NCBI GenBank assembly: GCA_945835865.1
Contig: CAMAJQ010000004.1
Span: forward strand, 1-12,099
Reading direction: 5' to 3'
DNA length: 12,099 nt
From: an uncultured Clostridia bacterium
GTDB lineage: Bacteria; Bacillota; Clostridia; Christensenellales; Borkfalkiaceae
In this document: positions 1,096 to 12,040 of the stretch, one piece after another
Position numbering within the stretch: position 1 is the first letter of the stretch
Layout: each line of letters starts with the position of its first letter
Position numbers and translations under genes: made by a program
The notes under the pieces: model-generated
What the model was told of the DNA's origin: nothing
The model's database searches: none
The model's input: the letters and a program-made list of their open reading frames with translations, nothing else

Positions 1096-2067
1096 TTACC
1101 CGCGGGAAACGGCAAGCTGGGCGATCCACATGACGACGCAAACCGCGATCCCTGCAAACGCCCACCGGAAAAAAGCTTTTCCCTCTCCCTTTTCTTTCCC
1201 TTCCTCTTTCTCCGTCTCCCGCTTTGCGGTGAGAAAGAAACCGAGGACGACGGCCGCGACGCCGAGGACGACGGCCGCGACGCCGAGGACGGTCAGAACC
1301 GCCGTCACGGGCATAGGGAAATCCAGAACGCCAGGAGCAAAATACTCGAAACAGACGATGATCAGATTGTTCAGAAAATGCACCGCCGTCGAAGGCAGCA
1401 AAGACCCGCTTTTCAGCGCCAGCCAGGTAAACATCCCTCCCACGCACAGTTGATAGGGCGTCTGCGCGGGATTCATGTGAAAGAGCGAAAAGAAAACGCC
1501 TCCGACGAGACACGCCGCCCCGTCGGGTAAAAATTTCAGCCCGTCGGCGAGTATCCCCCGGAAGGCAAGTTCCTCCGCAACGGCGGGAAGCAGACAGACG
1601 GAAACGACCGTCAGGATAAAATTGACGGGGGTGAACTGCGGAAGTGCGATCTCCGTATAACGGTAACCGACGGTCTTTTCCAGAAAGGAAATAAAAAGAG
1701 AATTGAGAGAGGAAAGACCGAAAAACATTCCGACGAGAAAAAGCAGTGCCGCAAAGGAGGAAGAGCGATCGGGCACGCGATAAAAGCGACGGAGAGAATA
1801 CAATCCCGTCCCCTTGAAAAACAGCAGGCAAAGGAGAAGGATCGCCAGAGGAGAAAGGGCGTAGGATATAATCTTGTAACCATCCGACCCCGTGATCTTC
1901 GCGATTTCTTCCCCGTTCCCGCCCGCAATCGCGGAAAGAACGGCGGACGAGAGCAGGGTGACGACGAGAAGGGTCAGGGTAAGCAGGCTGAAAAAAGTCC
2001 CCGCAGCCCTCCCTCCCGTCGTGATGAAAAGAGGCGTTTTCCGATTCTGATTCTTCATGGTTTTCAT
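1096..2067 (-). CDS. CPBP-family intramembrane protease-like protein (CAAX protease/bacteriocin-processing, ABI family)
   Basis: This 323-residue polytopic membrane protein carries the CPBP (CAAX protease and bacteriocin-processing) motifs. They are AEELAFRG at 164-171 (E165, E166, R170), FSLFHMNP at 193-200 (H197), and AVHFLNN at 228-234 (H230, N234). These residues are thought to form the intramembrane active site. About seven or eight hydrophobic segments are visible, at roughly 24-46, 68-85, 104-126, 148-163, 184-198, 222-240, 255-279 and 302-318. A charged Lys/Glu stretch (281-298) separates the last two. Its ATG overlaps the stop codon of the upstream ABC transporter gene (ATGA), so the two are probably co-translated and work together. 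In other bacteria CPBP proteins mature peptides or give immunity to exported bacteriocins; the substrate here is unknown. Segment 255-279 contains an in-frame tandem repeat. Confidence 0.82.
   Translation of the reverse strand: MKTMKNQNRKTPLFITTGGRAAGTFFSLLTLTLLVVTLLSSAVLSAIAGGNGEEIAKITGSDGYKIISYALSPLAILLLCLLFFKGTGLYSLRRFYRVPDRSSSFAALLFLVGMFFGLSSLNSLFISFLEKTVGYRYTEIALPQFTPVNFILTVVSVCLLPAVAEELAFRGILADGLKFLPDGAACLVGGVFFSLFHMNPAQTPYQLCVGGMFTWLALKSGSLLPSTAVHFLNNLIIVCFEYFAPGVLDFPMPVTAVLTVLGVAAVVLGVAAVVLGFFLTAKRETEKEEGKEKGEGKAFFRWAFAGIAVCVVMWIAQLAVSRG
1241..1291 (-). repeat. 21-nt in-frame tandem repeat (about 2.4 copies) in the CPBP gene
   Basis: Bases 1241-1261 and 1262-1282 are identical 21-mers, and 1283-1291 start a third copy that then diverges. 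In the protein this duplicates seven residues, giving VLGVAAV-VLGVAAV within the hydrophobic segment at about 258-276. Because the unit is a multiple of three, gain or loss of copies would keep the frame and only change the length of the membrane helix. Confidence 0.9.
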
Positions 2068-4586
2068 TCGCTTCTCAATGCTTTTACGGGATCGGCTTTC
2101 CCCGCGCGCAGCGAGGGGATAAGACCGGCGATCACGGTGAGCAGGACGGACGCGGCCAACAGGATCGCCGCCTGTCCGACTCCGAGCCGCACGAAACGAG
2201 CGACCCCCGTGATTGAATAGAAGAGGGCGTTCAGAGGAAGGACTGCAACCGAGGTGAAGACGAGACCGAGGACGCCGGCGGCAAAACCGATAATCCCCGT
2301 CTCCGTCACGAACAGCCGGACGACGTCCTTTTTCCTCGCGCCGACCGACCTCAGGATCCCGATCTCCTTCGTCCGCTCGATGACGGAGACGTAAGTGATG
2401 ATCCCGATCATGATCGCCGAGACGACGAGGGAAACGGAAGTCAGGGCGATGAGAATGGCGCTGACCCCCGTCAGAATGGATCGGACGTATTCGATCGCCA
2501 CCCCGACGTTATCCACGTATTTCACCTGATCACTCTCCTCTCTGCCCTCGTTATAGGCGTCGAGATAGTCGAGCAGATAATCTTTGTCTTTTATGGTGTT
2601 CGGATAAAACCGTATCGTCGTCGGAATTTCGGAATACCCGAGGGATGCGAGCGCGTTCTGTTTTTCGCGCTCTTCCGTATAGACGACGGAAGGGTCGAGG
2701 ACGCTCTTCGTCATGTCGGCAAGTTGCGCCTCGGTCACCGCCGAACGCGCGTACGTCTTCCCGTTGAATTCTCCCCCGTAAGATAAAACTTTCACGAGAT
2801 CGGTGAGTTCCTGCGTGTAACAGGCGGTGGAAGAAGAGAGCATGCCGTACTGCGTGTCCTCTTTCAGGCGGAAGATCCCGACGATTTTCAATTCGATACC
2901 GGTTTTGTTTCCGTCGGAATTGCCGTCGAAACAGTCGATTTTATCCGCAGTCCCCTCGCCGAGAAAGGCGTCCAGTTGCGTCCTGATTTCATTTTCCTTG
3001 GTTTCATTCGGTTGGAGGAATTCACGGACGAGACGTTTGACGATATTGACCGTTTTCTCTGAAAACGCCTCCGACTCTTCCGATTCTTTGTAATAATACT
3101 GATCGTTGGAAAGGAGATAAAAAGAGCCGAGTCCGCCGTTTAAAATCTCGTCGTAGGAATAGCCTTTTTTATCGGAAGAGTATACGTCGAGATAATAAGA
3201 GGTCAGCAAAGCGTCCGAGACGGAGGAATCCTTGCCGACGACGAGAGCGAGTTCGTTGTAGGCGGAGGGATATTTCCCGATCAGATCGTATTGTTCGTAC
3301 ACCATGTCGGCGTTGCCGGGCAACGCCTGCCATTTCGACGCGTTGGAAACCATGGCGTCGACGGCGACTTTTTTATTGCCCGCCAGTCCGAAGGGAGTGT
3401 AGAAAGTCTTGTAGACCTTCATGTTCAGGCTGTAACCGAGATCGTATGTCACTTTTTTTCCGTCGATTTCCGCAACGTAATCGAGGTATTCCTGCGTGAT
3501 GTGATTGGTTACCGTCGTCTTGGTCGCGTTGCGGAGAGTGTGGTTGATCGTGACGTCAGGGGTCGGACCGTCCTCTCCGCTTTCCGAACTTCCGGAAGCG
3601 TTCTTTTTGGGCGTGACGTAACCGAGAATGGACTCGAAATACGGCTCGTACGTCGTCGCCTTGACGGCGACGGTCACGGGGGTCGCGCTCATGGTATCTT
3701 TCTGTACTTTGTCGATAAAGGCGTTGAGTCCCGTGCTGCACGCGAGCACGAGGGCGATCCCGATGACGGCGATCGAAGCGGCGACGGAAGTCAGGATCGA
3801 ACGGACCTTTTTTCCCGCAAGGTTTTTCAGACTCAGTTTCGCCGCAAGCGAATAGGGCATGGACGAGCGGAGAGGAGACTCTTTCGCCGGAAGTTTCTTT
3901 TCCTTCGGCTGGTAAGGATTGCTGTCCGAAACGATCTTTCCGTCCTTGATGCGGATGATACGGGTGGCGTACGCCTGCGCGAGTTCGTCGTTATGGGTCA
4001 CGGTGATGACGAGCCTGTCCCGGGAAATCTCCCTGAGCAGATCCATCACCGCGACGCTGTTACCCGAATCGAGCGCTCCGGTCGGCTCGTCGGCGAGAAT
4101 GATGGAGGGGTTGTTGACGATCGCCCGGGCAATCGCCACGCGCTGCATCTCTCCCCCCGAAAGCTGACGTGGTTTTTTTCGGAGATGCTCGGCAAGCCCG
4201 ACCCGGACGAGAGCGTCGATCGCCCGTTTTCTCCTCTCCTTCGCCCCGATCCCGCCGATGGTCAGAGCGGTCTCCACGTTTTCGAGAGCCGTCTGATGGG
4301 AAATGAGATTATAACTCTGAAAGACGAAGCCCACCTTTTCCGAACGGTAGCCGTCCCAGTCGGCGTCTCCGAATTCCTTCGTCGATCTCCCGTCGATGAG
4401 AATGTCGCCCGAAGTGTAGCGGTCAAGCCCGCCGAGAACGTTCAGAAGAGTGGTTTTCCCGCATCCCGAATGTCCGAGAATACAGACGAACTCGCTGTCC
4501 CGGAAGGAAAGGGAAACGTCGGAAAGGGCTTTCACCTTTTTATCCTTGGTCTCGTATATCTTTTCGACGTGACGTAATGCAATCAT
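2064..4586 (-). CDS. MacB/FtsX-type ABC transporter, ATPase fused to permease
   Basis: This 840-residue protein joins an ATPase to a type VII (MacB/LolCDE-like) permease. The N-terminal ATPase shows Walker A GHSGCGKT (38-45), Q-loop FQ (89-90), signature LSGGE (142-146), Walker B IILADE (162-167) and switch His198. After a charged linker (about 225-260) comes TM1 (about 264-285). A large polar extracytoplasmic domain of about 410 residues (290-700) follows. TM2-TM4 are at about 705-733, 762-786 and 803-825. The FtsX signature [18 protein letters not shown] is at 738-755, and the C-terminus DPVKALRSE is typical. Such proteins act as dimers and transmit ATP-driven motion to the outer domain, often for peptide, antibiotic or lipoprotein handling. 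The ATG at 4584-4586 has AGAGG upstream, 13 nt after aroK. It overlaps the CPBP start by 4 nt. The substrate is unknown. Confidence 0.92.
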
Positions 4587-4599
4587 GTTTTTCCTCTCT

Positions 4600-5118
4600 T
4601 CACCGCCTCGGAGACTCCGCTTCTTCGGCGGCTTTCATACCCTGAAGGATCTTTTCGACTTTGTCGTCTACCCCGTAACCGTTCCCGTCGACGACGAGAT
4701 CGGCGTAGCGGAGATAAAGCGGTCTTCTCTTTTCGTACAATTCCTCGATTCCTCGGACTCCCTTATCGGCGATCGGCCGCTTCGAACGCAGGATACGTTC
4801 GGCAACCGTCCCGACGGACGCGTCGAGAAAGACGACGAAGGAACGCTTTTTCAGCAGGCGCATATTCCCCTCGTCCGTGACGACGCCTCCTCCCGTAGAA
4901 ATGACCGAGCGGAAGTGTTTCGCCGCCTCGCGGACCGCCTCCCTCTCGTATTCGCGGAATTTTGCCTCACCTTCCTCGGCAAAGATCGCGGCGATATCGC
5001 CGTGCGCCTTGCGGACGAGCCTGTCGGTATCGATAAACCGCCTGCACGTCCTCTCCGCAAGCGCGAAACCGATGCGGCTCTTTCCCGCTCCCGGCATGCC
5101 GATCAGGACGATGTTCAT
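4600..5118 (-). CDS. aroK: shikimate kinase
   Basis: This 172-residue P-loop kinase phosphorylates the 3-hydroxyl of shikimate (step 5 of chorismate synthesis). Walker A GMPGAGKS is at 7-14. D30 and D32 (FIDTD) fit Mg and shikimate binding, FREYE is at 54-58, the shikimate-binding GGG is at 76-78, and the lid contains RPIADKG (114-120). RRPLY (131-135) is the usual later arginine site. The reading frame stays open upstream to about 5406, but the extension is Arg-rich, unrelated to the family and overlaps aroQ. I therefore start at ATG 5116-5118, whose ATGA overlaps the aroQ stop. No Shine-Dalgarno sequence precedes it, so translation probably depends on ribosomes finishing aroQ. Confidence 0.94.
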   Translation of the reverse strand: MNIVLIGMPGAGKSRIGFALAERTCRRFIDTDRLVRKAHGDIAAIFAEEGEAKFREYEREAVREAAKHFRSVISTGGGVVTDEGNMRLLKKRSFVVFLDASVGTVAERILRSKRPIADKGVRGIEELYEKRRPLYLRYADLVVDGNGYGVDDKVEKILQGMKAAEEAESPRR

Positions 5119-5531
5119 ATCAGAAATGACAGGGCGGCAAGCCGATAGACCTGCGTCCCCAGCCCCGCGACGACCCCTTTGCATACGGGGGCGATCACGC
5201 TCGTGCGGCGAAATTCTTCCCGCGCGAAGATATTGGAAATATGGACCTCGACGACGGGGACTTCCGTCGAGGAGATCGCGTCGCGCAGGGCGACGCTGTA
5301 ATGGGAATAGGCGCCCGCGTTCAGCACGATGGCGTCGGCGTCGCTCTCGCGAACGGCGCGGCAGAGTTCCCCTTCGATATCCGAAGTAAAAAAGGAACAC
5401 TCGCACCCCTTTTCCCCGAAGAAACGGACGAGTTCTCCGTTGATCTCTTCCAGAGTCTTCTCCCCGTATACCGATTTCTCCCGCTTTCCGAGAGCCGCCA
5501 TATTGACGCCGTTGACGAAAAGAAATTTCAT
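5115..5531 (-). CDS. aroQ: type II 3-dehydroquinate dehydratase
   Basis: This 138-residue protein fits the dodecameric type II dehydroquinase family (trans-dehydration of 3-dehydroquinate to 3-dehydroshikimate, step 3). Conserved features are the N-terminal NG-x-N (7-10), R17 and catalytic Tyr22 in REKSVYG, EGEL (53-56), NAGAYSHYSVALRDA (71-85), catalytic His97 in VEVHISN, and AREEFR (103-108) before the KG-V-x-G-LG segment. Usual family motifs are NGPNLNLLG and NPGAYTHTS, so this copy is somewhat divergent: V and M in the first, A for P in the second, and TSD where QSN is common. The catalytic residues are intact. Its ATG has a strong AGGAG with an 8-nt spacer, and the start overlaps the aroA-aroE stop (ATGA). 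Confidence 0.92.
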   Translation of the reverse strand: MKFLFVNGVNMAALGKREKSVYGEKTLEEINGELVRFFGEKGCECSFFTSDIEGELCRAVRESDADAIVLNAGAYSHYSVALRDAISSTEVPVVEVHISNIFAREEFRRTSVIAPVCKGVVAGLGTQVYRLAALSFLI

Positions 5532-7696
5532 TGCGTTTTCTCCTCTCCGCCGTTTTTCGTCGGCGGGAAAATCTTCTGTCTGACCGCTTTGCTTCTGGTT
5601 TCGATCATGCCCGCTACGGACGCGAGAAGAGAACCGGAAGACTTGCCCTCCGTCTCCGTTTTTTCCTCGCCCGTATACTCCCGGTAGAGAGCAAACGCCT
5701 CCTCCGGATCAGGCTCTCTCTCCGTGAAGATACAGTCGGCGAGATACGCCTGAAAAAAGAGCATTCCCGCCCCGTTGAAGACGGGTTTGCCGAGTTCCCC
5801 GGCAATCCGGAGAAACGCCGTTTCGGGCGGGTCGTAAACGAGATCCGCAGCCGCTTTGCAGCCGGAGAGAAGTTCTTTTCCCGCAGGCAGAGGATCGTCC
5901 GCGTGCGTTCCCAGCCCCGTCGCGTTGATCACGAGGTCGTACGGCGAGTCGGGGATCTCCCGAAGGACGTAGACGGAAGGCATTTTTTTTCGCAGTTCGA
6001 GCGCCGTTCTCGGCGTGCGGTTATAGACGTCCACGCTCGCTTTCGCCCCGACGAGCGCGGCGACGACGCTTCTGCCCGCACCGCCCGCGCCGAGCACGAG
6101 AACTTTTTTCCCCGCGACGTCGAAACCGTGGTATTTCAGCATCATCAGAAAGCCGTTTCCGTCCGTCGTGTAGCCCGAAAGCCCTTTGACGGTATTGACG
6201 CTCTTCGACGTCTTTGCGTCGCCGTGATACTTGAGGACGTGTTTATACGCGTCCCCTTTATAAGGTGCGGTCACGTTATAGCCGGCGTATTCCTTCAGCT
6301 CGGCGTACGCCCGTTTCAACCCGTCTTCCTTCACGGCGATATAGGAATAACTGTAAGTCGGCAAACCGAATCTGTCCAGAAGAAAAGAGTGCACGGCGTT
6401 GGACGGGGAAGCCGAGAGATTTTTCCCCAGCAGGGCGAACGAATTCTTTTTCAGTTCCTCGAAAAACCCCGGGAAGGAAATAGAGACGCAGCCGTCGTCG
6501 TCGATATCTCCCCCGTTGCGGGAACAGACGAGGGCGACGGCGCCGCTCATCGCGATCCTGTGGTCGCCGTACGTTCTGATCTCTCCTCCTTCGTAACTCT
6601 CCACGCCGTTGACGACGAGCCCCCCTTCGATCTTGCGGCATTTTCCGCCGACGGAGTTGATCATTTCGGAGATCGCCATCAGGCGGTCGCATTCTTTATA
6701 TTGCAATTCTCCCGCGCCGCTGATGATGCTCTCGCCTTCGGCAAGCCCCATCAGAACGGCGAGGACGGGAATATCATCGATCATGCCCGCGACCTCGTCC
6801 TCGATGACGTGCGTCGCTTTCAGTTTGCTCTTATACGCCGTGACGTCGGCGACGAGTTCCCCGCAAAGCATCCTCTTGTGCGTGATCTCGATCCTCGCCC
6901 CCATCCGTCGAAGGACGGGAATGATGCCCGTTCGCGTCGGGTTGACCCCGACGTTTCTGCACGTCACCTTTCCGAGCATAAGCCCGATGGCAAGGAAATA
7001 GACCGCCGCCGAAAAATCGCCGCCGATATAGATTTTCTTCCCCTTCAGCTCGCTCTTTTTCAGAGTGATCCTCTTGTTCTCCCGATCGACGGAGATGTCC
7101 GCGCCGAGATATCCGAGAAGGATCTCCGTATGGTCCCTCGATCTGTTTTTTTCTTCTATCGTCGCCTCGACTCCTCCCGCCAGTGCGCAGAGCAGAATCG
7201 CCGATTTGACCTGAGCGCTGTCGTTTGTCATCCGGTAGACGATCGGACGGACTTTAGCCCCCTCCACGAGAATGGGAGGAACGGTATAATCGGTGAGAGC
7301 CACCGTAGCCCCCATTTTTTCGAGAGGGGCTTTCAGACTCTTCATCGGGCGGGAGCAGAGAGATCTGTCCCCCTGCAGAATGGCTCTGACGTTGCTCCCC
7401 GCGATTTCTCCGCAGAGAAGACGGAGAGTCGTGCCGCTGTTGCCGCAGTCGAGTTTGAGTCCGTCGCGAAGGGGTCTTCCCCCCTTGATCTCGACGATGC
7501 CGTCTTTTATGCTGACCTTCGCGCCCAACTTCTTCACGCAGGAGATCGTCGCCTGCGTATCCTGGCAGATAAGAGGGTGAATGACGTACGTTTTCCCTTT
7601 TGCCATGCTTCCGAGGATGATGGCCCGGTGGGTGATCGATTTGTCCGGCGGGACGGCGAACGCGCCGTATAACTCGCTCCGTGGATAAATTCTCAT
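5528..7696 (-). CDS. aroA-aroE: bifunctional EPSP synthase-shikimate dehydrogenase fusion (AroA-AroE)
   Basis: This 722-residue single chain has two complete enzymes. Residues 1 to about 417 are EPSP synthase (step 6): DKSITHR (18-24), GNSGTTLR (85-92), GDRSLCSRPM (109-118), SRDHTE (186-191), DDIP (307-310), KECDRL (334-339) and DHRIAM (378-383). Residues from about 418 to 676 are NADPH-type shikimate dehydrogenase (step 4): SASP (428-431, both shikimate-binding serines), NVTAPYK (474-480), N501, TTDGNG (510-515), the nucleotide loop GAGGAG (536-541), the NADP-selective NRT (559-561), NATGLG (591-596) and Gln649. The EPSPS end SFPGFFEEL runs straight into the AroE start, leaving almost no linker. 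A 45-residue charged tail (677-722) follows. No frameshift is needed. The start ATG overlaps the aroB stop and has only a weak Shine-Dalgarno, so coupling is likely. Confidence 0.95.
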   Translation of the reverse strand: MRIYPRSELYGAFAVPPDKSITHRAIILGSMAKGKTYVIHPLICQDTQATISCVKKLGAKVSIKDGIVEIKGGRPLRDGLKLDCGNSGTTLRLLCGEIAGSNVRAILQGDRSLCSRPMKSLKAPLEKMGATVALTDYTVPPILVEGAKVRPIVYRMTNDSAQVKSAILLCALAGGVEATIEEKNRSRDHTEILLGYLGADISVDRENKRITLKKSELKGKKIYIGGDFSAAVYFLAIGLMLGKVTCRNVGVNPTRTGIIPVLRRMGARIEITHKRMLCGELVADVTAYKSKLKATHVIEDEVAGMIDDIPVLAVLMGLAEGESIISGAGELQYKECDRLMAISEMINSVGGKCRKIEGGLVVNGVESYEGGEIRTYGDHRIAMSGAVALVCSRNGGDIDDDGCVSISFPGFFEELKKNSFALLGKNLSASPSNAVHSFLLDRFGLPTYSYSYIAVKEDGLKRAYAELKEYAGYNVTAPYKGDAYKHVLKYHGDAKTSKSVNTVKGLSGYTTDGNGFLMMLKYHGFDVAGKKVLVLGAGGAGRSVVAALVGAKASVDVYNRTPRTALELRKKMPSVYVLREIPDSPYDLVINATGLGTHADDPLPAGKELLSGCKAAADLVYDPPETAFLRIAGELGKPVFNGAGMLFFQAYLADCIFTEREPDPEEAFALYREYTGEEKTETEGKSSGSLLASVAGMIETRSKAVRQKIFPPTKNGGEEKTQ

Positions 7697-8718
7697 AAGG
7701 TGTCCAATAGTTCTCCGAATCGTTTTTGCGTGAGGAAAACCTCTTCCGTCCTTCCCTCGCCCGCGACGGCGACGAAGGAAACGAGGTCTCCTCTGTTCTT
7801 TTTATCCAGAAAGGCGGTCTCCGCCCCTTTTCTCAGGTTTACATAATGCGGGCGGGGAAGATAGGAGAGGAGAAATTCCTCCGTTTCCCGCGCGCGTGCG
7901 GAATCGACGATCCCGAGTGCTTCCGCCATTCTGTTTTCGTAATAAAGCCCTTCCAGAACGTACTCCCCGTGGCTTTTTTCACCGTAATTCATCTCCAGCA
8001 TATGCCCGACGGTATGACCCGCGTTCAGGATCTTCCTTCTGCCCGTCTTTTCCCGCTCGTCCTCGGCGACGATCCCGCCTTTGAAGCGGATGCAGTCGGG
8101 GAGCAGGGAAACAAGCAGGGAACGCTCGTCTTTTCCTTCGGGATTTTCCCTGATTTTTTTGCCTATTTCCGGGCTCAGGAGAGCCGTCTTGACGATCTCT
8201 CCCCTTCCCGAAAGCCACTCCCGGTCGGGAAGCGACGAGAGAAAAGCGGTATCGACGACGACGGTCGACGGCTGATAAAACGTTCCGACGAGGTTTTTAT
8301 ATTTCCCGAAATCCACCGCCGTCTTCCCTCCGACCGAACTGTCCGCCATCGCGAGCAAGGTCGTTGGAACGAGGACGTGTTCGATTCCTCTCATGTACAG
8401 CGAAGCGGCAAGTCCGCCGAGATCGCCGACGACCCCGCCGCCGAAAGAAACGAAAAGTCCGTCCCGCCCGATCCTCCTTTCCGCAACCGCCGAAAGAATT
8501 TCCCCGAGAACGGAAAAGGTTTTGTTCTCCTCTCCGCCGCGGAACCGACAGGGGGAATCGCAGAAACCGAAAGAAAACCCCGTTCCGTCCGCCGCGCCGC
8601 CGTCCGCGAGGACGAAGGTCTTTCTCCCCGCGCATTTTTTCTTCAGAAAACCGCCCGCTATCCCCTCGCCGATCAGAATATCGCAGGGAGAGGATAAGTT
8701 CAGGGTAATTTTTTCCAT
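7693..8718 (-). CDS. aroB: 3-dehydroquinate synthase
   Basis: This 341-residue NAD- and zinc-dependent enzyme converts DAHP to 3-dehydroquinate (step 2). The cofactor motif GGGVVGDLGG is at 93-102, followed by PTTLLAMADSSVGGKTA (118-134) and KNLVGTFYQP (141-150). The metal ligands fit E174 (RGEIVK), H235 (NAGHTVGH) and H250 (SHGEYV), and KK at 306-307 matches the late conserved DKK motif. It is slightly shorter than the usual 350-370 residues, mainly in the N-terminal half. The start at ATG 8716-8718 lies inside the end of aroC (19-nt overlap) with GAGG four bases upstream. The stop overlaps the start of the aroA-aroE gene (ATGA). Confidence 0.95.
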   Translation of the reverse strand: MEKITLNLSSPCDILIGEGIAGGFLKKKCAGRKTFVLADGGAADGTGFSFGFCDSPCRFRGGEENKTFSVLGEILSAVAERRIGRDGLFVSFGGGVVGDLGGLAASLYMRGIEHVLVPTTLLAMADSSVGGKTAVDFGKYKNLVGTFYQPSTVVVDTAFLSSLPDREWLSGRGEIVKTALLSPEIGKKIRENPEGKDERSLLVSLLPDCIRFKGGIVAEDEREKTGRRKILNAGHTVGHMLEMNYGEKSHGEYVLEGLYYENRMAEALGIVDSARARETEEFLLSYLPRPHYVNLRKGAETAFLDKKNRGDLVSFVAVAGEGRTEEVFLTQKRFGELLDTL

Positions 8719-9803
8719 CTTTCCTCAATCTCCGCCATGGTATCTCCGCCGAGCCGAAGAGAGATCTCTTCGGTGAGAAGAAGAGAAAGCGCGCATTCCG
8801 CGACGACGAGCAGCGCGGGAACCGCAGAAATATCCGAACGGATCTTTGCGGAAACGGTCTCCTCTTTGGTGACGCAATCCACCGTCTTCACTCCGCGCGC
8901 CGTCGTCGGAACGGGTTTGACGGCAAGCCGTACGACGATATCTTCTCCGTTCGTCATCCCCCCTTCGATGCCGCCCGCGCGGTTCGTTTCTCTGTAATAT
9001 CCGCCGTTTGCCGCGTCGTAACGGATCCCGTCGACGGTCTCCGTCCCCATCCTTGAACAAAGGGAAAATCCGTCGCCGAATTCGATCCCCTTCACGCAGG
9101 GCAACCCGACGAGAGCGCCTGCGATCTTTCCGTCTATTCTCCGACCGAAAGATCCGTATCCCCCGAAACCGCACTTCATTCCCCGCACGACGATTTTCAC
9201 CGTCCCGCCGAGCGTTTCCCCTTCCCTTTTCGCCTTGCGGATCTCGTCTGTTCCTCCGTCCGCAAGCATATAAAGGGGCTTTTCTTTGGATTTGAGGATT
9301 TCTCCGAAAGAGCGCGCTTCCCCGTCGCGGACGCTTCCGAGACAATCGACGTAACCGCCGACGACAACGCCCAGACGGGACAGAAATTCCCTTGCGACCG
9401 CCCCCGCCGCGACGACGGCAACGGTCGAACGGGCGGAAGCCCTCTCCGCGACGTCCTCTGCGGAAGAGAAACCGTATTTGATCATTCCCGGGAGATCTGC
9501 GTGTCCGGGGCGGAGGGCGGTAATTTTTCTTTCCTCTCTGCCCTCCGCAAAAGCGGGTCTGAAATCCCCGTTTTCTATCTCGATACAGACGGGACTTCCC
9601 GTCGTCACGCCCGCCCGTATTCCGCCCGTGAAGCGGATTTCGTCCTTTTCCGTTTTCTGCCTTTCGCTTCTCTCCTCTCCGCCCCGTCTGAGACGGAGGA
9701 GTTCTTCCGCCGACAAGACGTCGACCGGAAGTCCCGCCGGAACGTTTTCCAGGATCGCCGTCATCCGCGGGCCGTGCGATTCGCCCGCCGTCGTAAGTCT
9801 CAT
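8700..9803 (-). CDS. aroC: chorismate synthase
   Basis: This 367-residue enzyme makes chorismate from EPSP using reduced FMN (step 7). The family signatures are GESHGP at 7-12 (catalytic His10), RPGHADLPGMIKYG (98-111, with the second catalytic His101), ERASARSTVAVVAAGAVA (120-137), and NRAGGIEGGMTNGEDI (274-289). The C-terminal signature reads RSDISAVP (322-329) where RHDPC is usual. Arg and Asp are kept, so activity is expected. The frame is open up to 9899, but the extra 32 residues lie within the patatin gene and before the family's usual start, so ATG 9801-9803 is chosen. An AAGGA lies about 11 nt upstream. It is 19 nt after the patatin stop. The last pathway enzyme is thus encoded first in the aro block. 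Confidence 0.94.
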   Translation of the reverse strand: MRLTTAGESHGPRMTAILENVPAGLPVDVLSAEELLRLRRGGEERSERQKTEKDEIRFTGGIRAGVTTGSPVCIEIENGDFRPAFAEGREERKITALRPGHADLPGMIKYGFSSAEDVAERASARSTVAVVAAGAVAREFLSRLGVVVGGYVDCLGSVRDGEARSFGEILKSKEKPLYMLADGGTDEIRKAKREGETLGGTVKIVVRGMKCGFGGYGSFGRRIDGKIAGALVGLPCVKGIEFGDGFSLCSRMGTETVDGIRYDAANGGYYRETNRAGGIEGGMTNGEDIVVRLAVKPVPTTARGVKTVDCVTKEETVSAKIRSDISAVPALLVVAECALSLLLTEEISLRLGGDTMAEIEERWKKLP

Positions 9804-9822: not shown

Positions 9823-10602
9823 TCAAACGGAATCTCCGTTCTCCAATATTTCCCTGATTTCGGGCATCGCCCTTTTCGCCGCGCGGTAACCGCGCGCAAA
9901 CATCTCGTCGACCCCGGAGACGGACGCCGCCGAAAACCCCCGCAGATCGGGTTCTATCATCAGCGCGCTTTCGCGGTATCCGACCTCGATCCGGTTTCGG
10001 ACGGGCACCCCGTTTCCCGGATACATCTCGTCGAGATATCCTTTCAATTCCGTCGAAAAAGGTCTCTCTTTGCCGAGGCTGACGCCGAACACGACGTCTG
10101 CTCCGAGGCGTTTACAGACGTCCGCGGGAACGGCGTTGCAGAACGCGCCGTCGACCAGACGCCTGCCCCGATATCCGACCGCGTGAAAGACGGGTGGAAC
10201 GGACGAAGACGCCGCCAGCGCCGTGGCGAGATCGCCCTCCGTCATCACCCTTTCGTTCCCGTCGTCGAGATCGGTCGCCACCGCCGCAAAAGGAATTTTC
10301 AGATCGGAAAAATGCGCGCCGCCCGTCACGCGGTACAACAGCTCGGTCAATCCTCCGCCGAACGCAAAGGCGAAAAGAGACTGGATTTCGGTGAAATCCC
10401 ATTCCTCCTTGAGAGAAACCATATCGGCCGAGGTAAGTCCCTTTGCAAAAAGAGCGCCGACCACGCTGCCGATACTCGTCCCCGCGACGGCGTCGAAGGA
10501 GATTCCTTCCTCCTCAAACGCCCTGATCGCCCCGATGTGCGCGGCGCCCTTTGCGCCGCCGCTCCCGAGAGCAAGTCCGATTTTCCGTCCGTAACGATCC
10601 AC
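9823..10602 (-). CDS. patatin-like phospholipase family protein (RssA/NTE-like)
   Basis: This 259-residue protein has the patatin fold with a Ser-Asp dyad. The oxyanion-hole loop GSGGAKG is at 13-19, the nucleophile elbow GTSIG at 41-45 (Ser43), and the DGA motif at 151-153 (Asp151). The block ATDLDDGNERVM, then ASSSVPPVF, is typical of the bacterial RssA/YchK/NTE-like group. No signal peptide or membrane segment is visible, so it is probably cytosolic and acts on lipid acyl esters; the substrate is unknown. The start is GTG (10600-10602), supported by AAGGAG nine bases upstream and by the family's short N-terminus. It lies 62 nt after the nucleosidase gene and 19 nt before aroC. No link between patatins and aromatic synthesis is established, so co-transcription is the only evidence of one. 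Confidence 0.9.
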   Translation of the reverse strand: MDRYGRKIGLALGSGGAKGAAHIGAIRAFEEEGISFDAVAGTSIGSVVGALFAKGLTSADMVSLKEEWDFTEIQSLFAFAFGGGLTELLYRVTGGAHFSDLKIPFAAVATDLDDGNERVMTEGDLATALAASSSVPPVFHAVGYRGRRLVDGAFCNAVPADVCKRLGADVVFGVSLGKERPFSTELKGYLDEMYPGNGVPVRNRIEVGYRESALMIEPDLRGFSAASVSGVDEMFARGYRAAKRAMPEIREILENGDSV

Positions 10603-10611
10603 TGAAAAATA

Positions 10612-10617
10612 CTCCTT
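10612..10617 (-). promoter_or_regulatory. Shine-Dalgarno site for the GTG-started patatin gene
   Basis: AAGGAG on the minus strand sits nine bases before the GTG at 10602. It decides the start, because no ATG in this frame lies near the beginning of the patatin domain. Confidence 0.75.
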
Positions 10618-10639
10618 CGGGGGAATTGATCCCTCCCTG

Positions 10640-10651
10640 CCGCCATGGCGG
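10640..10651. repeat. perfect 12-bp palindrome CCGCCATGGCGG between nucleosidase and patatin genes
   Basis: The 12 bases are an exact inverted repeat in the longest gap of the operon (10603-10664), about 38 nt upstream of the patatin start. It could be a regulator-binding site or a small hairpin, but short GC-rich palindromes also arise by chance. It shares the half-site CCGCC/GGCGG with the palindrome at 11397-11408. There is no T-run after it, so it is not a terminator. Confidence 0.35.
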
Positions 10652-10664
10652 ATTTACGATTCCG

Positions 10665-11345
10665 TTACAGTGCGGAAGAGATGCCGATCACCACTTTCGC
10701 GCATTCCTCCGCCGCCTCTTCGACCATTTCTTTGAATTCGTCCGCTCCTCCCTTCCCGTCCGAAACGGCTTTCAGAACGAGACAGGGCACACCCGCGTGC
10801 AGGCAGGTGAGAAGGACGCCCGCGCTTTCCATTTCGCAGACGTCCGCCCCGTATACTTCGTGCAGTCTGCGCTTTTCCCCGTCGTCGGCGACGAACTTGT
10901 CGGCAGAGGCGCAGATCGCCTCTCTCGCCCCGGGCAGGATGCTTTTCGCTTTCGCCAGAAGCGCCTCGTCCGTCGGGAGGACGACGGAGGGGAATTCGAG
11001 ATATCTCCCGACCTCGCACCCGTCGATCGGCGAGGTGTCGAAATCGTAATGGACGACTCCTTTTACGACGACGAGCCCTTTGACCCCGAGATCCTCGGTC
11101 AGACTTCCGCAGACGCCGTAGTTCAGAACGACGTCGACGGCGTAACGGTCGACGAGCATCTGCGTCGCCGCGGCGGCAAAGATCTCCCCGACGCCCGATT
11201 TCACGCAGACGATCTTATTTTCTCCGATGCGGAAAATATGCACCGAAAAATATCCTTCTTTTACCTCTTCCCCCTCGTAACCTGCGTTCGCGAGAAGGGG
11301 AAGAAGTTCCTTTTCCATTGCGACTACCATGCCGATCGTTTTCAT
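10665..11345 (-). CDS. mtnN: 5'-methylthioadenosine/S-adenosylhomocysteine nucleosidase
   Basis: This 226-residue member of the PNP/UDP nucleoside hydrolase-phosphorylase superfamily fits MTA/SAH nucleosidase (E. coli MtnN/Pfs, about 232 residues). That enzyme cleaves adenine from MTA and SAH, which clears inhibitors of SAM-dependent methyltransferases and feeds methionine salvage. Glu11 in AMEKE matches catalytic Glu12 of E. coli. ASADKFV (146-152) matches the usual SGDQFV region. CEMES (170-174) carries the ribose-binding Glu173, and VSD (194-196) carries the purine-contacting Asp196. ATG 11343-11345 follows AAGGTG with a 5-nt spacer. Some relatives use other nucleosides (futalosine, adenosine), so exact substrate choice is less sure than the family. 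It is the first gene of the leftward operon and divergent from the C26 peptidase gene. Confidence 0.85.
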   Translation of the reverse strand: MKTIGMVVAMEKELLPLLANAGYEGEEVKEGYFSVHIFRIGENKIVCVKSGVGEIFAAAATQMLVDRYAVDVVLNYGVCGSLTEDLGVKGLVVVKGVVHYDFDTSPIDGCEVGRYLEFPSVVLPTDEALLAKAKSILPGAREAICASADKFVADDGEKRRLHEVYGADVCEMESAGVLLTCLHAGVPCLVLKAVSDGKGGADEFKEMVEEAAEECAKVVIGISSAL

Positions 11346-11413
11346 CGTTTCACCTTTTTTCGTCCTTTCGCATACCCTGCATATTGCCGACGGAAATCCG
11401 CCGGCGGACGATC
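11346..11413. promoter_or_regulatory. divergent 68-nt intergenic region (probable regulatory region of the leftward operon and the rightward C26 gene)
   Basis: Both flanking genes start here and point outward, so promoters for both should lie in or near it. I found no hexamer pair close to the sigma-A consensus on either strand. The leftward promoter may lie inside the beginning of the C26 gene. The region holds the nucleosidase Shine-Dalgarno site and an inverted repeat next to the C26 start. Confidence 0.4.
11386..11408. repeat. hairpin (11386-11405) overlapping a perfect palindrome TCCGCCGGCGGA (11397-11408)
   Basis: GCCGACGG-AAAT-CCGCCGGC forms an 8-bp stem with a 4-nt loop. It has one A-C mismatch as plus-strand RNA, but a G-U wobble, so a continuous stem, as minus-strand RNA. 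It overlaps an exact 12-bp palindrome. The palindrome ends five bases before the C26 ATG, so as RNA it would cover the place for its ribosome binding site, and as DNA it could be an operator. Confidence 0.45.
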
Positions 11414-12040
11414 ATGAAGAAAAAAATTTTGCTCTTGCGGGAAAACCCGCCGGAAACTTATCTGAAAGCCCTTTCCGCCGTCGGGGCGGAAGCCGACTGC
11501 TCTTTTTTCGTCTCCGATTACTCCCCGTACCGCGCCTTGTTGCTGATCGGCGGCGGAGACGTCTTTGCTCCCCGTTACGGTAAGCCCGCCGGAGAGGAAC
11601 GGGGTCTCAACCTGATCCGCGACGAAAGAGAATTCGCCGCCCTCGATTATTTCACTTCCCGTCGTCTGCCCGTCCTCGGCGTATGCAGAGGACTTCAGAT
11701 CCTGACCGTCTATTTCGGCGGAACGCTGAAGACGCTCGGCGGGGACGGAGTCCCCCTGCATAGAGCGGAGAACGGAAAGGACGTCTGTCATTCCGTCCGC
11801 CGTCCTCTTTCCCTCTGTTCCGTCCGTCAGGTCAATTCCAACCATCGTCAGGCGGCAGACCGTCTGCCCGACGACGCACGCGTTCTCCTGCAGGCGGAAG
11901 ACGGAAGGGCGGAATGCGTCTTTTTCCCTGCCGCCAACGCTCTCGGCGTGCAATTCCATCCCGAGCGGATGACGGAGAAGGACGCCGCGGCGTGGTACGG
12001 ATTTTTACTCGGCGGTCCGATCCCTCTCTCCTGCGTCTGA
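11414..12040 (+). CDS. peptidase C26-type gamma-glutamyl hydrolase (class I glutamine amidotransferase-like)
   Basis: This 208-residue protein is predicted to hydrolyse gamma-glutamyl amide bonds, as PuuD-type gamma-glutamyl-GABA hydrolases do. The oxyanion/substrate loop GGGDVFAPRYG is at 46-56, the nucleophile elbow GVCRGLQ at 89-95 (Cys91), VNSNHRQ at 140-146 (family VNSxHHQ), and QFHPE at 180-184 supplies His182 and Glu184. It is shorter than most relatives (about 230-250), mainly between the N-terminal strand and the GGGDV loop. The catalytic triad is complete and no signal peptide is seen. The frame opens at 11318, but the extra 32 residues lie across the divergent gene start; ATG 11414 begins MKKKILLLRE, a good first strand. 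No strong Shine-Dalgarno is present. The physiological substrate is unknown. Confidence 0.85.
   Translation: MKKKILLLRENPPETYLKALSAVGAEADCSFFVSDYSPYRALLLIGGGDVFAPRYGKPAGEERGLNLIRDEREFAALDYFTSRRLPVLGVCRGLQILTVYFGGTLKTLGGDGVPLHRAENGKDVCHSVRRPLSLCSVRQVNSNHRQAADRLPDDARVLLQAEDGRAECVFFPAANALGVQFHPERMTEKDAAAWYGFLLGGPIPLSCV

Follow-up and report, generated by a model that had tools for sequence, protein, structure and literature searches.

The aroA-aroE fusion and its operon

The window analysed here, the whole 12,099-base contig C4 of an uncultured Clostridia bacterium (genome G000; 1.24 Mb in 263 contigs, 64.3% complete), carries on its minus strand a single open reading frame (ORF) in which a 5-enolpyruvylshikimate-3-phosphate (EPSP) synthase (EPSPS; AroA) and a shikimate dehydrogenase (SDH; AroE), both with canonical active-site motifs, form one chain. 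In the window species this protein is probably a working bifunctional EPSPS-SDH, an activity that we infer from its sequence. In all 14 sister genomes of the same genus (g1; the genus-mates, or mates, below) the aligned fused protein has lost active-site residues and has nevertheless been retained, a pattern that the preliminary description of this stretch missed, as relatives are needed to see it. The parts of the fused gene are as follows.

5528..7696, minus strand: AroA-AroE fusion, 722 codons and 722 amino acids, from the ATG at 7696 to the stop ending at 5528 (Pfam, NCBIfam, ORF and AlphaFold2 model)
6446..7696, minus strand: EPSP synthase (AroA) domain, residues 1-417 (PF00275 at 5-415, and alignments)
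AroA active-site positions, first half (alignments): K19, S20, R24, N86, G88, T89, R116, S160
AroA active-site positions, second half (alignments): Q162, D307, K334, E335, R338, D378, H379, R380
5657..6445, minus strand: shikimate dehydrogenase (AroE) domain, residues 418-680 (PF08501 and PF01488, and alignments)
AroE active-site positions (alignments): S428, S430, N474, T476, K480, N501, T511, D512, Y621, Q649
Residues 536-542, minus strand: GAGGAGR dinucleotide motif of the AroE domain (alignments)
5528..5656, minus strand: C-terminal tail, residues 681-722, and stop (predicted local distance difference test [pLDDT] below 50 at 679-722)

The Pfam model EPSP_synthase matches residues 5-415 over almost its whole length (model positions 3-417 of 417; 311.1 bits, E 1.4e-92), and is followed by Shikimate_dh_N (PF08501) at 422-503 (45.3 bits against a cut-off of 27) and Shikimate_DH (PF01488) at 526-594 (29.3 bits against 24.3). 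NCBIfam aroA (TIGR01356) scores 371.9 bits, above its cut-off of 287.25; aroE (TIGR00507) matches residues 419-669 (model positions 2-263 of 270) with 153.9 bits, below the 200.2 at which a domain is called an equivalog, although the AroE catalytic residues are present. The AroA motifs DKSxxxR, GNSGT, RPM, SAQVKS, KExDR and GDHR line up with solved EPSP synthases, and the AroE motifs SxSP, NVTxPxK, VNT, TDGxG, GAGGAGR and FxQ with solved shikimate dehydrogenases. The 42-residue low-confidence tail is missing from most homologues, and one mate (G009) bears a tail of its own.

The preliminary description had reported an uninterrupted frame holding a full AroA and then a full AroE, with intact motifs and almost no linker. 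Its coordinates and length were right (the minus strand had gone unstated), the domain matches and the alignments to solved structures bear out both enzymes, and the two domain matches lie only 1-6 residues apart. A stop or frameshift near codon 417, which it had named as the observation that would undo the fusion, was not seen: the fused frame is uninterrupted in 12 of the 14 mates (complete ORFs of 675-716 residues; contig ends truncate the fusions of the other two, G006 and G013) and in all three genomes of a second genus, g13 (single ORFs of 665-668 residues, from a family sample of 301 genomes). The fusion is therefore no sequencing artefact.

The neighbouring genes, all on the minus strand, are listed here from downstream to upstream.

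2064..4586, minus strand: ABC transporter with FtsX-like permease, the downstream neighbour (at this slot in 12 of 14 mates)
4600..5118, minus strand: aroK, shikimate kinase (Pfam SKI; start overlaps the aroQ stop by 4 nt)
5115..5531, minus strand: aroQ, type II 3-dehydroquinate dehydratase (Pfam and NCBIfam; start overlaps the fusion stop by 4 nt)
7693..8718, minus strand: aroB, 3-dehydroquinate synthase (stop overlaps the fusion start by 4 nt)
8700..9803, minus strand: aroC, chorismate synthase (Pfam and NCBIfam; ATG at 9803 the likely start)
9823..10602, minus strand: patatin-like phospholipase, the upstream neighbour (at this slot in 11 of 14 mates)

The operon thus reads aroC-aroB-aroAE-aroQ-aroK; start and stop overlap by 4 bases at the aroB/aroAE, aroAE/aroQ and aroQ/aroK junctions. 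For aroC, whose ORF opens at 9899, we prefer the ATG at 9803 because the family match starts at residue 33. Related genera and families usually have the order aroC-aroB-aroA-aroE-aroQ-aroK, and genera g2 and g10 have aroA and aroE as separate yet adjacent genes in this same order; because aroA adjoins aroE in unfused relatives, the fusion is explained as the joining of two neighbouring genes. The flanks are also common to the genus-mates: on the 90-2067 side a TadA-like deaminase, an RlmH-like SPOUT methyltransferase and a CAAX-protease-like protein accompany the ABC transporter, and on the 9823-12040 side the patatin is accompanied by an MTA/SAH-nucleosidase-like protein and a divergent class-I glutamine amidotransferase.

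Loss of active-site residues in the genus-mates

We aligned the window protein with the fusions of the 14 mates and with 31 other AroA/AroE sets (15 fused and 16 separate, including 8 of the 15 loci fetched from g2 and g10), and scored 16 EPSPS and 10 SDH active-site positions by their agreement with the window. In what we take to be Escherichia coli numbering, the EPSPS sites are K22, S23, R27, N94, G96, T97, R124, S169, Q171, D313, K340, E341, R344, D384, H385 and R386, and the SDH sites include the catalytic Lys65 and Asp102 together with Thr61, Asn86, Tyr215 and Gln244. The 31 other homologues agree with the window at 15-16 of the 16 AroA and 8-10 of the 10 AroE positions. All 16 AroA positions are present in the window and each is common to 29-31 of the 31 homologues, and the window and all 31 have the six SDH residues just named.

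The mates keep 7-14 of the 16 AroA positions, that is, they have lost two to nine (truncated G006 keeps 7 of 10), and only 0-4 of the 10 AroE positions (G010, 2 of 9; truncated G013, 1 of 6). The catalytic SDH lysine K65 is kept in none of 14 mates, T61 in none of 14, Q244 in none of 13 and Y215 in none of 12, and K65 and Q244 are replaced by different residues from mate to mate; in the EPSPS half, E341 is kept in 2, H385 in 5 and R344 in 5 of the 14. All 31 homologues from elsewhere have each of these residues. Position S170, which is Ala in the window and in all 31 and Ser in 12 of 14 mates, was not counted as a loss. In the mates' AroE half 24% of cells in conserved active-site columns are retained, versus 59% in the other conserved columns. 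By its residues, the mates' fusion is certainly a pseudoenzyme in its AroE half, and probably one in its AroA half as well. Two ligand-related features persist: 13 of 13 mates retain both glycines (G536 and G538) of the dinucleotide motif, and the shikimate-3-phosphate residues are largely kept in the clade G001-G004, G006 and G007.

A second aromatic gene set

All 14 mates carry AroA2, AroB2, AroC2 and AroE2 elsewhere in the genome, and 13 of 14 carry AroQ2 (in G006 and G009 the set spans more than one contig). In L041, the locus of the only mate scanned in full, the order is 3-deoxy-D-arabino-heptulosonate 7-phosphate (DAHP) synthase, prephenate dehydrogenase, AroB2, AroA2, AroC2, chorismate mutase/prephenate dehydratase, AroE2::AroK2 and AroQ2. 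In each of the 13 mates with a full AroA2 row, 14 of the 16 positions are kept (the remaining mate has a partial row); all 14 have Glu at the N94 position, and the residue following D313 is Leu or Ile. AroE2 has Ser16, Asn59, Thr61, Lys65, Asn86, Asp102, Tyr215 and Gln244 in 14 of 14, and varies at Ser14 and at the Asn preceding the last glycine.

At the old slot, the one that corresponds to the window's operon, aroB, aroC and aroQ are gone from 14 of 14 mates and the fused gene is kept in 14 of 14, also where the patatin (three mates) or the ABC transporter (two mates) was not found. Counting over the two loci fetched per mate (old slot and second set), AroK is fused to AroE2 in nine mates and stands at the old slot in the other five, never both. 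Querying 91 family genomes with AroA2 returned the AroA2 type (about 35-50% identical) in g5, g6, g8, g14 and g16, and the old type (about 25-33%) in g10, g13 and g2, except G032. The query search found neither AroA2 nor AroE2::AroK2 in the window genome, which is 64% complete, and the fusion is the sole AroA and the sole AroE found in that assembly.

Some of these loci are of interest in themselves. The AroE::AroK fusion places consecutive steps on one chain (L041:10609-11811, 400 residues, with equivalents in 9 of 14 mates), and another lies at L106:1728-3071 (447 residues) in G348 of family f27; passages of PMC11237513 report an AroE-AroK fusion in Methanomicrobiales and two bacterial assemblies. 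In G062 (genus g6) a second AroA-like match (C12:20855-22036, 28% identical) accompanies the AroA2 type, and this genome may be another case of two gene sets. A record of an Actinomycetes metagenome-assembled genome has a match (L085:6001-7356) 33% identical to query residues 16-448.

Constraint and predicted structure of the retained fusion

The ratio of nonsynonymous to synonymous substitution rates (dN/dS) was estimated by the Nei-Gojobori method (NG86) for six pairs of mates, for each domain of the fusion and for its second-set counterpart (AroE2 includes AroK2 where fused). In most pairs dS exceeds 1, and only G002/G003 lies mostly below or near 1.

G002/G003: AroA domain 0.046, AroA2 0.174; AroE domain 0.109, AroE2 0.166
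G005/G011: AroA domain 0.060, AroA2 0.208; AroE domain 0.052, AroE2 0.194
G006/G007: AroA domain undefined, AroA2 0.095; AroE domain 0.110, AroE2 0.083
G001/G004: AroA domain 0.091, AroA2 0.144; AroE domain undefined, AroE2 0.201
G012/G014: AroA domain 0.156, AroA2 0.213; AroE domain undefined, AroE2 0.249
G010/G013: AroA domain 0.215, AroA2 0.335; AroE domain 0.236 (90 codons), AroE2 0.345

Where measurable, then, dN/dS in the mates' fusion is 0.05-0.24; the AroA domain is below AroA2 in 5 of the 5 pairs with both values, and the AroE domain is below AroE2 in 3 of 4. For G002/G003 the AroA domain is 93.5% identical versus 73.4% for the live AroA2, and over eight mates 27% of columns are invariant in the AroA half versus 22% in AroA2. 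On these estimates the mates' fusion is under purifying selection.

AlphaFold2 models were confident both for the window protein (mean pLDDT 85.2, predicted template modelling score [pTM] 0.83, the tail at 679-722 being of low confidence) and for the mate form L071 (6001-8046; mean pLDDT 89.8, pTM 0.88). The fold of L071 has probably been kept, because the order of elements in the two models is nearly the same and the best Foldseek matches of both are solved EPSP synthases (the eight best of each have target-normalised TM-scores of 0.85-0.89). The best 50 Foldseek rows per model held EPSPS, AROM and one designed protein and no SDH; SDH structures were matched by sequence search instead.

Distribution and origin of the fusion

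All 15 genomes of g1, that of the window among them, have a match to the fusion. The window's bacterium has relatives that inhabit animal guts, and the records of 7 of the 14 mates mention goat, sheep, roe deer or reindeer. The fusion is not a one-off: besides g13, at least 25 genomes of family f18 (23 of genus g35 and 2 of g112) have a stop-free match spanning both domains, in an order sample of 396 genomes (those at least 80% complete, and the window's own). The 12 of these 25 that were fetched are all single ORFs of 649-693 residues, each within an aroC-aroB-aroAE-aroQ-aroK operon; in one operon a further ORF separates aroC from aroB. In 298 further genomes of the phylum, the matches listed (E <=1e-60) held no stop-free fusion and included two adjacent aroA-aroE pairs with a stop between. 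The counts from the family, order and phylum searches are minimum values, and a small number of long AroA frames without an AroE match stand outside them (for example G455, G321 and G499 in the order sample and G766 in the phylum). Three g10 genomes with long open frames were considered as fusions and were not counted: aroA and aroE are annotated as separate ORFs in G084 and G130, and in G023 the AroE match sits in its own 284-residue frame.

In trees of AroA plus AroE, the f18 fusions form a clade apart from those of g1 and g13, with the unfused f18 relatives G416 and G567 as sisters. The g1 and g13 fusions form one clade, with support of 95/87 in one tree (from which c2_G006, with a short AroA, and G240, with no AroE in its locus, dropped out) and 100/97 in the tree with f18. 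Read most simply, these trees suggest two fusion events in the order, one in the ancestor of g1 and g13 and one in f18; a single ancestral fusion followed by several fissions would be less simple. In the g13 genomes G026 (96% complete) and G042 (95%) the fusion is the sole match both to the AroA-AroE query and to the AroA2 query, so that the fused architecture must be the working one in g13, if the pathway runs. As a joining of neighbours the fusion is ordinary, of a recurrent local kind; it is notable for its fate in the sister species.

Within g1, the window branches in the AroA plus AroE trees as the sister of all 14 mates (100/99 and 100/97), and an approximately unbiased (AU) test on the same data rejects a position of the window inside a group of seven mates (p 0.0005); this placement fits a single loss of the active-site residues. 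As a candidate sign of an older second role we also considered positions invariant in the window and the mates and not elsewhere in the family, of which 23 were found. In a control with the g13 outgroup such columns made up 7.7% of the AroA domain, 1.1% of the AroE domain, 4.4% of the ABC transporter and 2.3% of the patatin, and because this excess is mild we do not lean on it.

A probable path from bifunctional enzyme to retained pseudoenzyme

We consider it likely that the window protein is a bifunctional enzyme, that the mates' fusion is a retained pseudoenzyme with a non-catalytic role, and that in the mates the second gene set does the work of the pathway. The stop and start between neighbouring aroA and aroE would have been lost, most simply in the common ancestor of g1 and g13. 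In the window species the two domains would work independently on one chain, translated from the overlapping operon. In the lineage of the 14 mates the second aromatic gene set would have taken over the pathway, with aroC, aroB and aroQ vanishing from the old slot and aroK remaining there only where the second set has no aroK. The fused gene alone would always have been kept, its active-site residues lost while purifying selection held it to a non-catalytic job. Our bet is that this job is that of a ligand-responsive regulator or scaffold, because of the conserved dinucleotide glycines and the largely kept shikimate-3-phosphate residues of the G001-G004, G006 and G007 clade. It is possible, if doubtful, that such a second role already exists in the window species as a moonlighting function, and became the sole remaining role in the sisters, as a QutR-like sensor or scaffold of aromatic metabolism, after the pathway genes were replaced.

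Several observations weigh against this interpretation. The window is the reference in the residue count and so has the full score by definition, its intactness resting on agreement with homologues and solved structures, and its genome is incomplete enough that a second set may be missing from the assembly alone. Just two of 16 AroA positions are lost in G002 and G003, so that residual EPSPS activity is possible there, and three in G001, G004 and G007. The contrast at the AroA active site is weak (about 64% kept at conserved active-site columns versus 73% at other conserved columns, after manual removal of column 161, at which the Ser of the mates matches E. coli). The residues that bind shikimate-3-phosphate are not conserved over all mates, so no single ligand explains all. 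Between distant mates the AroE half outpaces AroE2 in divergence (identities of 41% versus 62% for G001/G004 and 35% versus 62% for G012/G014), and 9% of its columns are invariant over the eight mates versus 18% in AroE2. Finally, a tree of neighbouring genes puts the window among seven mates (85/98, not starred), which would mean repeated loss, although one clade of 14 mates is not rejected by these genes (p 0.352); and support for the window as sister to the mates drops to 74 when 106 conserved columns are removed.

The same facts bear on the alternatives. We think it unlikely that one or both domains of the mates' fusions are active as well, through unusual residues: the intact predicted fold of L071, the few AroA positions that differ in some mates and the G001 form, which passes NCBIfam aroA at 318.2 bits (cut-off 287.25), would agree with activity, but the catalytic SDH lysine and Gln244 are absent wherever they could be scored and variously replaced, and every mate encodes a further AroA and AroE in which the main catalytic residues are kept. 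Quite improbable is the reading of the fusions as decaying, still unbroken pseudogenes, or as genes kept solely because their translation is coupled to that of the next genes. Redundancy with the second set, the fast divergence of the AroE half between distant mates, and slot genes that overlap or lie within tens of bases of each other speak for it; the intact frames in all 12 complete copies, the low dN/dS (in the AroA domain lower than in its live counterpart) and the retention of the fusion at slots that have lost aroB, aroC and aroQ speak against it, and translation coupling puts no constraint on amino acids.

We hold it very unlikely that the fusion serves substrate channelling or the recruitment of AroK, as had been proposed for the window protein. 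The aroK gene lies one gene downstream, AROM-like fusions exist, and the pTM of the window model suggests a defined arrangement of domains; yet the EPSPS and SDH steps are not consecutive, the gene order common to unfused relatives already accounts for the fusion through adjacency, and nine mates keep the fusion with no aroK at the old slot. The structure prediction that had been suggested as a check gave a confident model; no result of the analysis supports recruitment or channelling.

On the preferred reading, in which an active fusion gave way to a retained pseudoenzyme, one genus holds both ends of the transition: a bifunctional enzyme that seems to be live, and 14 versions under constraint that lack the SDH catalytic residues, each in a genome with a second aromatic gene set. 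This makes it testable whether a moonlighting role precedes the loss of catalysis as an enzyme turns into a pseudoenzyme. It also carries a warning for annotation, in that the G001 form still clears a curated NCBIfam cut-off, that of aroA.

Relation to known systems

That such a fusion is unusual in bacteria was correctly judged in the preliminary description, which had proposed searching genomes for the same domain order; that search found fusions in g1, g13 and f18. It had also named, as a finding that would refute it, homologues showing the fusion to be already common and described. The fusion recurs in g13 and f18, and among the matches listed from titles and abstracts of the open-licence PubMed Central (PMC) literature there was no paper on an AroA-AroE fusion or on a bacterial EPSPS or SDH pseudoenzyme; such fusions may well be named in some supplementary table or database. 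The main text of a fusion survey (PMC4921024) gave no shikimate match, and according to passages of PMC9394408 multi-domain EPSPS is rare in bacteria and then mostly has two domains.

Each domain matches monofunctional AroA or AroE over nearly its full length; the differences are that the two are fused here, and that the AroE catalytic residues are lost in the sister species. Other prokaryotic shikimate fusions likewise carry two enzymes per chain, but none of those named here is AroA-AroE: AroD-AroE and AroE-AroK (both in archaea, in passages of PMC11237513), prephenate dehydrogenase-EPSPS and EPSPS-cytidylate kinase (known by NCBIfam names), and chorismate mutase-SDH (by the Protein Data Bank name 3fbt).

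Fungal AROM/Aro1 has EPSPS and SDH activities on a single chain, as is predicted here, but in five domains (3-dehydroquinate synthase [DHQS], EPSPS, shikimate kinase [SK], 3-dehydroquinate dehydratase [DHQase] and SDH) rather than in two derived from adjacent bacterial genes. The window protein is thus not an AROM, having only the EPSPS and SDH domains with aroB, aroQ and aroK as separate genes, and the AROM/Aro1 arrangement is not matched (Foldseek root mean square deviation of 25-32 A over >1100 columns). The fungal repressors QutR, GaaX and TanX are, according to passages of PMC10512348, also built from shikimate-enzyme domains, and the mates resemble the QutR type in that catalytic residues are lost (14 mates) with the fold kept (as predicted for L071). 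These repressors resemble the last three AROM domains (SK, DHQase and SDH) and are paired with a zinc-cluster activator, whereas the bacterial fusion is EPSPS plus SDH with no known partner, a partner having been sought only among the annotated neighbours at the slot. Retention of an inactive shikimate domain has a fungal parallel too, in Candida albicans Aro1, which passages of PMC9074039 describe as retaining a catalytically inactive DHQase domain.

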